Assembly: GCA_023265625.1 (NCBI GenBank)
Contig: JAHFST010000004.1
Span: 62,001 to 126,000, forward strand
DNA: 64,000 bases
Direction: 5' to 3'
Source: Deltaproteobacteria bacterium
Lineage (GTDB): Bacteria > UBA10199 > JACPAL01 > JAHFST01
In this document: positions 46,237 through 62,196 of the stretch, piece after piece
Position numbering within the stretch: the first letter of the stretch is position 1
How the letters are laid out: every line of letters begins with the position of its first letter
Notes under the pieces: generated by a model
The model's input: the letters and a program-made list of their open reading frames with translations, nothing else
Databases searched by the model: none
What the model was told of the DNA's origin: nothing
Made by a program: the position numbers and the translations under genes

Positions 46237-46314
46237 TTTCTTCCAACTTGTCATGCTAACCCATTGTTTTCTCGTCTTCTCCAATTTGGCCCGAAATTTG
46301 CTTTAGTCTTGACC

Positions 46315-47019
46315 ATGGCTTCTCTACCCCGATCCGCTATCCTAGAAGATAACTCCTGTTTCCATGTCACTTGGCAATGTCATAATCAGGACCGGTTACT
46401 GAAAGAATCTTGGGCAAAACAACTCTACTACAATCTCTTGTTACACTACAAAGACCGTTACCAAATCCAGATCTACTCTTACTGCCTAATGGATAATCAC
46501 CCTCACCTCTCGGGACATTTGAATTCGCTTCGTGACTTCTCCGACTTCTTTAGGGTCGTGAATGCCCGCTTCGCTAGACTCTACAACAAACATGTCAAAC
46601 GCAGGGGGCAGGTCGTCATGGACCGATTCAAATCGCCTATGATTCAAACTGATAAACACTTATTAGAAGTTATGCGTTACATCGACCTCAACCCAAAGCG
46701 TGCCGGAAAGGTCTTTCATCCTGATGATAATCAATTCTCCTCCTATCGCTACTATGCACACGGAGAGAACGACCCCCTCATCACACCAGCACCTTCTTAC
46801 CTCACCCTCGGCAACACCCCAGAACAACGTCAATCTGAATATCGTGCACTCGTGGAGCATCTGCTCCAAAATGACTGGAAAAATAAACAGCCCTACTCTT
46901 CACAACCCTTCATCGGTAATCCCGATTGGGTTCTGCATAAAAGCAAACAATTAGATCAGATCTACCAGCAGAAAATTGCCAACTGGAAACAACGCTATAG
47001 AGAACGATTCGGAACCTAG
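46315..47019 (+). CDS. REP-associated tyrosine transposase (RAYT, Y1 family)
   Basis: A 234-residue single-strand transposase of the IS200-like Y1 group. It begins LPRSAILEDNSCFHVTWQCHN and has the HUH-type motif in YSYCLMDNHPHLSGHL (His-x-His), then RRGQVVMDRFKSPMI and the tyrosine helix LLEVMRYIDLNPKRAG. Length and lack of terminal IS structures fit the REP-associated subgroup. The His pair reads HPH where HVH is usual, which should preserve metal binding. No second copy is in the window. Confidence 0.9.
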   Translation: MASLPRSAILEDNSCFHVTWQCHNQDRLLKESWAKQLYYNLLLHYKDRYQIQIYSYCLMDNHPHLSGHLNSLRDFSDFFRVVNARFARLYNKHVKRRGQVVMDRFKSPMIQTDKHLLEVMRYIDLNPKRAGKVFHPDDNQFSSYRYYAHGENDPLITPAPSYLTLGNTPEQRQSEYRALVEHLLQNDWKNKQPYSSQPFIGNPDWVLHKSKQLDQIYQQKIANWKQRYRERFGT

Positions 47020-47256
47020 GAAACCTTTTCAAAAAATAAAAATTAAAGTCAAAGAGACGGGTGTGTCTACGACAAGCTTAGATCAAGACATTTAACGTTA
47101 TTGGCATGTCTTCATGGCCAATTAATCAATAGTGAGGGTCATTTTTTCAATTAACCTATCGTTCTACGACTCTCAAAACTGTGATCGAAATAAATTGGAG
47201 GGAAAAAGATCAACTTAAAATAGAAACTCCGTCTTGAGCTCCGTCTTCAAACCAAC
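47020..47256. other. 237-base intergenic region with CTCCGTCTTCAAA repeats
   Basis: AT-rich spacer between the RAYT gene and the convergent TatD fusion gene. It holds no ORF or RNA gene that I recognise. Near its right end ACTCCGTCTT (47226-47235) and GCTCCGTCTTCAAA (47238-47251) are inverted copies of the GAAGACGGAG repeat found around the ORF at 58728. Confidence 0.6.
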
Positions 47257-58667: not shown

Positions 58668-58709
58668 GAAGACGGAGCAAATTTAAATTCAAATATTTTG
58701 AAGACGGAG
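58668..58709. repeat. GAAGACGGAG repeat pair upstream of the HTH gene
   Basis: GAAGACGGAG at 58668-58677 and 58700-58709, separated by AT-rich bases with AATTTAAATT. Related copies at 60814-60834 and, inverted, 60868-60881 and 47226-47251. Confidence 0.75.
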
Positions 58710-58727: not shown

Positions 58728-60818
58728 ATGCCTGCCGATAAGGTGGCCATGTTTGTAGCCCGTACCATTCCTGTGGTGAGTGAGTTGTGGCCGTTGCAAA
58801 GTCAGTCACAATGCGCGGCACAACCCAGCAGTTTCGACTGGTTTAGGGTGAATGGTCGCAGTCTCTGGATAGGCGCTCCATCCGGCCCCTCTTGCTCATC
58901 GGCAGTCCAACTGCAGGGGCCTATCGAGGCAATCCTCCACCCTTCCCGTCAAGTGGCCTCACTCTTCAGTGAAGAACATGGTGCCGAACCAGTCCCATGT
59001 TCACTAACCCCGAATGTCCTCCATCATCCTGCGGATCCCGATACACGGCATTACCAAATCCGCTATCGTGATCACACCATCGACATCCGCTATACGCACC
59101 AGGCCAGGCTGAGCAGTACCGACCTCCCATACGTAGATCGGGTCGCCATCCTCGAAGAGATCATGCGGTTGGATTCTGTCTGGCCCCTGTTGACCGACTC
59201 TGTTCCCCTCCCCCTACCCGAGGCGGTGGCACGACTGGAGGTATTGACCCGTTGGTGGATCCTCAGGAATAAAAAACAACCGAGGCCAGTGGACTTGACC
59301 AATTTGACGGAGCGGCTCTTTCCGTCCGAGGCGGGTTTCTCCGCCACATTCCGAGCCCGGACACAACTCGTCTTGGTGCGTCTCGAGTTTCGCAGGCGTC
59401 ATGGATCGTTGGACGATTTGCAACAACCACTGACGCCGGAATTCCTAACCGCAGAGAGTCATCCTGGCGCCGCCTACCTGGCAACTCTTGTTAAACCGCT
59501 CGGCCTCTCTCTCCAAGCTTTTTTAACCGCCCTAGGGCTCAACATGGGCGTGGTCACTGAACCGATGCAACGCGGATTCTGCCTGCCCATCGAGCGCCTG
59601 GTTCCGATCGCCAACGCGCTGGAACTTAAAGACGCCTCACCCCTGGTGTATTGTGTTTATCATCTCTTCCTTGCGCCGTACTTCCAAGTCAAAATCAAGG
59701 GTAATACAGTACATCTCTATATCAAGACACCGGTTCATTCTATGGCGTTGTTGCGACGTTACGGTTTTGGAGGGTTACTACGCGCCCATCGAACCGTACG
59801 CGCCCAATATCTCACAAGCATCGGCAAGGACCCAGCCTTCCCGCTGGGCCATGAACCGGAAACCCTCAACGACTTGGAACTCAATCGGCGCCTACCCCAC
59901 AGCTTTCAGACCGTCTTGCGCCTCGTGGATTATTTCAAGATGGGCGCTGAGGGCCTGCTGGCTGTCTTGCCCGATCTGCCGTGTTTTATTCCCATCCATG
60001 ATCACAAAGGAAAATTATTGGAACCACCGCAACATCGTTCCTTTAAAGTCGCGGGTTATCATCCCGTCATTTTTAAAGAATCCGATTCCCGTACCGCTCC
60101 AACTATGCAGGGGGCCGGCAAACCACGGCGGCCGGGAAGCTTGAGCTGGCTAGTCACCTTTGAACGATCGTTTCGAAGCATGACCGTGAGTGCCTTTGCC
60201 GATTGCATCGGCCACGCAGATTCCGCACTGCAACATCTAGAATCTGAAAAGGGACGCCCCTCACTTGGGTTGCTGACCTCATTGTCTTCGGAACGAGCTC
60301 TTCATATACCTTTGGAACGACTGGCAGCCCTGGTAAACCAGCTTCCACCCCAGCAAGGCATTCTTCCTAAGTGGTCCACGTTCCGCGCCCAGCGGCCCTG
60401 CTTGCTCACAGACAAAGACCCCACGTCACCGGGAAACTCAAGCTCTCACGGAGATTTTTACAAGCTGCGGTTGTATGAGGCCCACTATCGGACTGGGAAA
60501 AAGCTTCCCTCCTTGGGGGAAATCTTTCTCTTCCTCCGAAAAGACCTGGAACGGTTGCAGCAAGATCAAAATTTAACACTCACCCGGGAAGAGCTCAGTG
60601 GTATTTTGCAAGTAAGACGCAAGGACATTTCCAATTTTGAATTAAACCGACGGCCGCCCTCGGCACGTGTTCTACAAAAGTATGTCGATTATTTCGGTGT
60701 CACTCCCGCCTCCCTGATACGGGCGATCCAAGAAACGGAATTTCCAACAGGAACTCCCCTCCCGGACTACAGTGGGATTCAACCTCCAGAGAATATTTTA
60801 GTCCGTTACTCATTTTGA
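58728..60818 (+). CDS. large protein with several XRE-like helix-turn-helix segments
   Basis: A 696-residue protein from the ATG at 58728 (TTG at 58698 is possible). The clearest unit is C-terminal: LTREELSGILQVRRKDISNF and ELNRRPPSARVLQKYVDYFG, a lambda-repressor-type helix-turn-helix. Weaker units seem to lie near residues 255-305 (LQAFLTALGLNMGVVTEPMQ, LPIERLVPIANALEL), 350-420 (LNDLELNRRLPHSFQTVLRL, VDYFKMGAEGLLAVL) and 490-550 (MTVSAFADCIGHADSALQHL, LPLERLAALVNQL-like). No enzyme motif is seen. A DNA-binding regulator is suggested but not shown. Confidence 0.6.
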   Translation: MPADKVAMFVARTIPVVSELWPLQSQSQCAAQPSSFDWFRVNGRSLWIGAPSGPSCSSAVQLQGPIEAILHPSRQVASLFSEEHGAEPVPCSLTPNVLHHPADPDTRHYQIRYRDHTIDIRYTHQARLSSTDLPYVDRVAILEEIMRLDSVWPLLTDSVPLPLPEAVARLEVLTRWWILRNKKQPRPVDLTNLTERLFPSEAGFSATFRARTQLVLVRLEFRRRHGSLDDLQQPLTPEFLTAESHPGAAYLATLVKPLGLSLQAFLTALGLNMGVVTEPMQRGFCLPIERLVPIANALELKDASPLVYCVYHLFLAPYFQVKIKGNTVHLYIKTPVHSMALLRRYGFGGLLRAHRTVRAQYLTSIGKDPAFPLGHEPETLNDLELNRRLPHSFQTVLRLVDYFKMGAEGLLAVLPDLPCFIPIHDHKGKLLEPPQHRSFKVAGYHPVIFKESDSRTAPTMQGAGKPRRPGSLSWLVTFERSFRSMTVSAFADCIGHADSALQHLESEKGRPSLGLLTSLSSERALHIPLERLAALVNQLPPQQGILPKWSTFRAQRPCLLTDKDPTSPGNSSSHGDFYKLRLYEAHYRTGKKLPSLGEIFLFLRKDLERLQQDQNLTLTREELSGILQVRRKDISNFELNRRPPSARVLQKYVDYFGVTPASLIRAIQETEFPTGTPLPDYSGIQPPENILVRYSF

Positions 60819-60881
60819 AGACAAAGACGGAGTACCTTTAAATCTAAATAATTTTAGATAGTTAATTAACTCCGTCTTCAA
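60814..60881. repeat. inverted GAAGACGGAG repeat after the HTH gene
   Basis: TTTGAAGACAAAGACGGAGT (60814-60833) and AACTCCGTCTTCAA (60868-60881) form an imperfect inverted repeat around an inner TCTAAATAATTTTAGA hairpin. The TGA of the gene lies in the left arm. It may act as a terminator or as the edge of a mobile segment. The rest of the gap to 60988 is AT-rich promoter-like DNA. Confidence 0.7.
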
Positions 60882-60988: not shown

Positions 60989-61270
60989 ATGAAAATGGTC
61001 CCGGCGACGGATGTCAAAAATCAGTTTGGTAATTATCTAGGGGAAGTCGTTTATGGCAAGGAACCCTTGGTGGTCGAAAAATATGGCAAGCCGGTGGCCG
61101 TCTTGGTTCGTTACGAAGATTGGATCGAGAAAACACAGGGCTCACCCAGATCTCCCCTACTAGACAGTTTTCACCAACTCGTCGACGATCTGACAAAAAA
61201 CCACCCCACCGCAAAATATCCTTCAGCCGTTGAATTAATTCATCAGGTTCGCGAAGAAGAGGATGCTTAA
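60989..61270 (+). CDS. Phd/YefM-family antitoxin
   Basis: A 93-residue antitoxin with the Phd fold: VPATDVKNQFGNYLGEVVYG, EPLVVEKYGKPVAVLVRYED. The C-terminal half is a charged toxin-binding tail. An AAAGGA ribosome binding site precedes the ATG, and upstream DNA is AT-rich (60885-60970) with TATAAT-like stretches. The stop is followed at once by the VapC start (TAAATG). Confidence 0.9.
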   Translation: MKMVPATDVKNQFGNYLGEVVYGKEPLVVEKYGKPVAVLVRYEDWIEKTQGSPRSPLLDSFHQLVDDLTKNHPTAKYPSAVELIHQVREEEDA

Positions 61271-61723
61271 ATGCAGGAACTCTGCCTGGATGCGAATATT
61301 CTAGTCGCCGCTTTCACCCCGCAAGAGCCACAACATAGTGTGGCCAAGAAGGTTATTCAATACGTCTTACAGAATAGCATCGCCCTTTTTGAACCTGCGG
61401 TGCTTTGTTTTGAAGTCGTCTCGGCAATTTCCAGAAAAAATAGCGCGGGCGATTTGACGGATGACGAAACCACCCGAATCTCAAACTTTATTTTTCAGCT
61501 CCCCCTCCTGCTGCAATGGCAACAAGACATTCTGGAGAAGGCCAGGCGCCATGCGCGCGAGTTGAATTTCAAAAATATTTATGACTGCACTTACCTGGCC
61601 GTGTCCATGGGGCGAGAAATACCTTTGGTCACTTTAGACAACGAACTCCTGGTGAAGGGACGCCGCGTTTACCAGCAGATTTACGATCCATCGGCATTCT
61701 TGACTCGCCAAGGCATTTCTTAA
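61271..61723 (+). CDS. vapC: VapC-type PIN-domain ribonuclease toxin
   Basis: A 150-residue PIN toxin with the acidic active site at Asp7 (LCLDANILVAAF), Glu48 (CFEVVSAI), Asp105 (NIYDCTYLAV) and Asp123 (LVTLDNELL). It would cut tRNA or rRNA and is neutralised by the Phd-type protein encoded directly upstream. It is intact, unlike the PIN remnants at 2279 and 29022. It overlaps the convergent EVE gene by 4 bases. Confidence 0.93.
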   Translation: MQELCLDANILVAAFTPQEPQHSVAKKVIQYVLQNSIALFEPAVLCFEVVSAISRKNSAGDLTDDETTRISNFIFQLPLLLQWQQDILEKARRHARELNFKNIYDCTYLAVSMGREIPLVTLDNELLVKGRRVYQQIYDPSAFLTRQGIS

Positions 61724-62196
61724 TCGCGATGGCGAACACGCCCCAACCTCCGTACCCCCTCAAAATGTATCTCCTCCACCGGTTGCACCGAGAGCCTCAT
61801 CCCTTTTTTTAACACCAGCATCCCATCCAGATCCGGATTCGCCTTAAGCTCTTGCAAAGAGACAAAATGGGGAAATTTTTCGACGAACTCCAGGTCCACC
61901 ATCATCCAGGTGGGCTTGGCAGGATTGGAACTGGGGTCGTAGTGCTTGTCCTTGGGATCCCAGGCACAAAAATCGGGATAGCCCGTCCGACATATCTTCG
62001 CAATCCCCGCCACGCCTGAGGGTTCGGCATTGGAATGATAGTAGAGCACCAGATCCCCTACTTTCATCTGATCGCGCATGAAGTTACGCGCCTGGTAATT
62101 GCGCACCCCATCCCAATACGTCTTGCCGTCCCGCTTCAAATCATCGATCGAATAGGCCTCTGGTTCCGATTTCATCAACCAATACTGTTGAGACAT
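61720..62196 (-). CDS. EVE domain protein
   Basis: A 158-residue protein of the EVE/PUA-like superfamily (thymocyte nuclear protein 1 type). It begins QQYWLMKSEPEAYSIDDLKR and has WDGVRNYQARNFMRDQMKVGDLVLYYHSN and KPTWMMVDLEFVEKFPHFVSL (shown in shorter pieces: WDGVRNYQARNFM, GDLVLYYHSN). EVE domains bind modified bases in DNA or RNA, so a role in reading modified nucleic acid is likely but the target is unknown. Confidence 0.92.
   Translation of the reverse strand: MSQQYWLMKSEPEAYSIDDLKRDGKTYWDGVRNYQARNFMRDQMKVGDLVLYYHSNAEPSGVAGIAKICRTGYPDFCAWDPKDKHYDPSSNPAKPTWMMVDLEFVEKFPHFVSLQELKANPDLDGMLVLKKGMRLSVQPVEEIHFEGVRRLGRVRHRD

Follow-up and report, generated by a model that had tools for sequence, protein, structure and literature searches.

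Few DNA-binding folds are as common in bacteria as the XRE domain, which normally occurs once per chain; repressors of the XRE/Cro-C1 class usually carry a single such domain and dimerise. XRE folds can also serve protein-protein contact, as in RodZ, and metazoan CUT-repeat factors (CUX1, SATB1) hold tandem lambda-repressor-like folds in one chain. Here we describe a bacterial gene from a window of 64,000 nucleotides, the whole stretch of DNA that was analysed (contig JAHFST010000004.1 of a Deltaproteobacteria bacterium, positions 62,001 to 126,000), whose product has XRE units arranged in tandem in one chain, which suggests a large DNA-binding protein. The features of the locus are collected in Table 1.

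Table 1. Features of the multi-XRE locus, in window coordinates.
Feature	Position	Strand	Residues	Basis or remark
Multi-XRE protein gene, 696 aa	58728..60818	+		ORF list; paralogue in same genome
Unit 1, possible degenerate XRE-like domain	59469..59663	+	about 248-312	HigA model, single-sequence AF2, Foldseek
Unit 2, degenerate XRE-like domain with insertion, first ELNRR	59766..59936	+	347-403	Unit HMM, hhalign
Unit 3, XRE domain	60138..60338	+	471-537	PADLOC, PHROGs, PDB profile, unit HMM
Unit 4, C-terminal XRE domain, second ELNRR	60510..60734	+	595-669	Pfam, unit HMM
Divergent ORF, ~242 aa	57910..58638	-		No recognised domain; without relatives among 46 genomes of the phylum
Two direct copies of RAYT-linked REP-like core GAAGACGGAG, upstream of gene	58668..58709	+		
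Inverted pair of GAAGACGGAG core, downstream of gene	60823..60879	.		
RAYT (Y1_Tnp) transposase gene	46264..47019	+		Y1_Tnp match; repeats at 47227-47248, 211-223 bases away

The open reading frame comprises 696 codons in the ORF list of the window, from an ATG at 58728 to a stop codon ending at 60818. A TTG further upstream, at 58698, lies within one of the flanking repeats, and the ATG was preferred for this reason. Since a paralogue encoded in the same 2.93-Mb assembly is 37% identical across aa 131-664 (E 6e-93), the frame is a real gene, as the first-pass annotation had it. The divergent neighbouring frame was considered as a partner and rejected: it has no relative in the phylum, and its similarity to the multi-XRE protein did not go beyond that of shuffled sequences. 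A Phd/YefM antitoxin and PIN toxin pair lies directly 3' of the multi-XRE gene (window 60989-61723). For the query, the analysis turned up neither a conserved gene neighbourhood nor a co-regulated operon, and no DNA site.

Three XRE-like units were demonstrated in the protein and a fourth is likely; most likely they comprise two better-preserved units (3 and 4) and two degenerate ones (1 and 2), with unit starts spaced about 97-125 residues apart. For a hidden Markov model of the unit, 14 units taken from distant relatives were used; the query, the paralogue and the homologues encoded by a second genome of the phylum (G032) did not contribute. This model found exactly three units in the query (units 2, 3 and 4), with scores of 11.6, 13.4 and 21.2 bits, respectively, against 4.8 bits for the best of 500 shuffles. 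The clear helix-turn-helix that had been noted at the C-terminus, unit 4, matches Pfam HTH_19 over aa 615-667 (E 2.1e-12, 47.2 bits, cut-off 30.2) and also HTH_3 (E 9.8e-9, 35.6 bits, cut-off 23). The match of a curated model above its cut-off at this unit, and the further XRE units in the same chain, show that the protein carries helix-turn-helix domains of the XRE/Cro-C1 type. Unit 4 carries a net positive charge (15 K/R versus 11 D/E), and the peptide RRKDISNFELN is presumed to be its recognition helix.

Pfam reports the C-terminal domain alone in the query, and the full-length single-sequence AF2 model is uninformative (pLDDT 34), both of which would fit a protein in which unit 4 is the sole real helix-turn-helix and the other segments resemble one by chance. 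Such a protein is nevertheless exceedingly unlikely, and for unit 3 the proposal is already contradicted. In the query itself, both PHROGs and PADLOC recognise unit 3, the latter with HTH_VI at E 4e-12 and a best stretch of aa 480-535. A profile of this unit from four homologues matches XRE repressors in the PDB, including the 434 repressor, DdrO, HipB and SinR (E 6e-7 to 4e-4), together with some designed proteins, and in a homologue the best stretch of an HTH_3 match (E 3.5e-12) falls at the unit-3 position. To this must be added that three units score above all shuffles.

Unit 2 has no match in curated domain libraries. In profile-profile comparison (hhalign) it matched the units of distant relatives with E 1.3e-7, and its sole PDB profile match was the XRE regulator ClgR, in register, at E 0.33. 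Unit 1 was not matched by the unit HMM, and its profile matches no XRE chain in the PDB. A weak match to the HigA model covers aa 243-272 (E 0.016), and single-sequence AF2 places five helices in XRE order within aa 241-320 (pLDDT 68). When this model was searched with Foldseek, the best hit was not significant (E 2.1), and 27 of the 35 weak matches were XRE regulators or antitoxins. These data are only suggestive of an XRE-like fold in unit 1. The long relatives have a degenerate fourth unit, and the idea that unit 1 is a copy of it was unsupported (hhalign E 0.16). The balance of charges in unit 1 (4 K/R versus 5 D/E) and in unit 2 (10 K/R versus 8 D/E) gives no support to a putative DNA contact there. 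Thus, of the up to four XRE-like segments claimed at first pass, three exceed all shuffles and the fourth, unit 1, is only likely; among the three noted in addition to the C-terminal one, unit 3 is confirmed by PADLOC and PHROGs and unit 2 is supported by the unit HMM, with unit 1 no further than suggestive.

The same annotation had pointed to a repeated ELNRR...DYF pattern as a sign of internal duplication. The pattern is indeed there: DYF at 401 follows the ELNRR of aa 384, and DYF at 654 that of aa 638. The local alignment of units 2 and 4 scores 52, which none of 1000 shuffles reached (maximum 46). XRE domains commonly have E-x-G-x-R-x-P at the turn after the recognition helix, and ELNRR-P occupies this position; ELELNKRKP stands at the same place in a distant relative. 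The two copies in the query are written with different codons (GAACTCAATCGGCGC versus GAATTAAACCGACGG), and in the paralogue ELNRR is retained in unit 4 only, unit 2 there reading VEKNET, so a recent internal duplication was rejected. The ELNRR match mainly reflects a generic turn motif shared by XRE domains, and the relation between the units is one of fold and old descent; the duplication claim therefore holds in that the units are homologous XRE folds and fails as regards a recent event.

Searching with a profile of the query and its paralogue retrieved two G032 proteins of ~850 aa; when these were added to the profile, long open reading frames in further genomes were reached as well. The distant relatives found in this way, in five further genomes, are 920-2,610 aa long and have one to six units by the HMM, and the order of units is the same in homologues. 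Pairwise BLAST of some long relatives against the query or the paralogue gave weak matches, mostly through the helix-turn-helix regions. Aligned over unit plus linker with the distant relatives, the paralogue and both G032 proteins scored 11.9-15.6 bits, versus at most 5.5 for shuffles; the linker between units is shared with the distant relatives. The phage, plasmid and viral collections yielded no relative except a single phage regulator of generic Cro type. Scans of genome contigs and viral contigs with single proteins and alignments, which depend on short stretches of conserved peptide and overlook distant members, likewise returned no relative. Within the collections searched, the family is restricted to one phylum, where clear long members occur in just 7 of 46 genomes, in keeping with the first-pass description of such chains as rare.

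Most long relatives share an N-terminal hydrophobic domain of ~300 aa, which the query does not have. Proteins with this N-terminus (L051-L055, L074, L075) differ in their C-termini, and the domain has no Pfam match. The C-termini comprise XRE arrays, a GGDEF domain in one long relative (L051:2957-5725), a GNAT domain in a shorter protein (L055:985-3120) whose N-terminus is that of one long relative, and in one case nothing recognised (L053:7263-9926). The longest, of 2,610 aa (L073:6505-14337), has HALLLNGHHRMAAL ahead of its XRE units, which looks ParB-like by eye; no Pfam match is reported. In three genomes (L053, L074, L075) a long multi-XRE gene lies directly 3' of an argG-like (argininosuccinate synthase) gene, so that its position is conserved among them. 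The two G032 homologues (L026, L031) each overlap a downstream gene with a YggS-like product, and both end in KNHRRGKARRA. In the same genome as the query, a fragment with an internal TAA matches the HTH profile of the long relatives (L076, G000:C21:124105-124395; E 5e-6) and is possibly a relic.

The multi-XRE gene is flanked by four copies of GAAGACGGAG, at 58668, 58700, 60823 (1 mismatch) and 60870(-), with two lying shortly before the start codon, an arrangement that would suit a protein binding these repeats and regulating itself or REP elements. REP elements are known to flank their RAYT transposase genes (PMC2817692). The repeats at this locus are best read, on the pattern of copies, as a dispersed REP-like family of a RAYT transposase. 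The genome has 16 exact occurrences of GAAGACGGAGT versus one of the reversed control, with copies both between and within genes. Eight Y1 transposase genes were examined: four are RAYT copies 82-95% identical to one another, each with the core AAGACGGAG about 210 bp away; within the loci examined, the exact core flanks two of them on a single side and two on both. One of the four is the RAYT gene of the window at 46264-47019. The remaining four Y1 transposases have no core within their loci. There is no exact copy of the core at the paralogue locus. As the repeats are dispersed, linked to RAYT genes and absent where the paralogue lies, binding of the protein to them is disfavoured and we consider it very unlikely; nothing ties the flanking REP-like repeats to the multi-XRE protein.

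With moderate confidence, we favour a role for the query as a solitary chromosomal multi-XRE protein that would bind DNA through units 3 and 4, units 1 and 2 having diverged, at a longer or bipartite site. DNA binding is predicted because units 3 and 4 belong to the XRE DNA-binding family; together with the regulatory role and the division of labour between units, it is inferred. In the proposed arrangement, tandem units joined by the conserved linker would act within one chain, the better-preserved C-terminal units 3 and 4 would contact DNA, and the drifted units 1 and 2 might be structural, dimerisation or weak DNA-contact modules. One chain could thereby span a longer or bipartite site compared with an ordinary XRE repressor. 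A stricter version, in which the protein is an array-type reader, each XRE unit with its linker contacting its own piece of sequence and the number of units and recognition helices changing between paralogues to set the target in a modular-repeat manner, appears quite improbable as a whole.

The tandem units could instead form a protein-protein scaffold that does not bind DNA, in the way that the RodZ helix-turn-helix binds MreB. Weak HTH_25 (RodZ-type) matches in some relatives are consistent with this, several units are degenerate and not basic, and the occurrence of other modules in larger relatives (the N-terminal hydrophobic domain and GGDEF, with GNAT in a shorter sibling) fits scaffolds or signalling proteins. 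By contrast, DNA-binding repressors, not RodZ, are the best matches of the query's units 3 and 4, and both an HTH_25 match and a strong transmembrane segment are lacking from the query. We regard a scaffold as a tentative and rather unlikely alternative. A family with three to six XRE units per chain offers a test case for a long DNA reader versus a scaffold. Because curated libraries detect just the best-preserved units, other proteins may hold comparable arrays that have escaped notice.

XRE domains occurring singly are well documented; no description of a tandem XRE array of this kind was found in the literature searched, a limited collection, in which the tandem arrangement with a shared linker is thus undescribed. 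Among known systems, the CUT-repeat factors CUX1 and SATB1 resemble the query in their tandem arrangement; the query is bacterial, and no homeodomain was found in it. RodZ offers an XRE-like fold outside transcription. It combines one helix-turn-helix with a transmembrane segment, whereas the query shows no HTH_25 match up to E 10 and no clear transmembrane helix (highest 19-residue hydropathy 1.57), and so does not belong with RodZ. Nor does it belong with HigA-type antitoxins, the HigA model scoring 15.1 bits against a cut-off of 47.7; the adjacent toxin-antitoxin pair is of the Phd/PIN type and has its own antitoxin. The flanking repeats do fall within the RAYT-REP systems, with the core near all four related RAYT genes and dispersed in the genome. 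The relatives within the phylum (L051-L055, L073-L075) are alike in unit and linker; most have the N-terminal hydrophobic domain and one has GGDEF, both of which the query lacks. Over the helix-turn-helix core, units 3 and 4 match the XRE/Cro-C1 repressors (HTH_3, HTH_19, HTH_31; 434 repressor, SinR, DdrO, HipB), from which the query differs in having three or four units per chain and a conserved linker.
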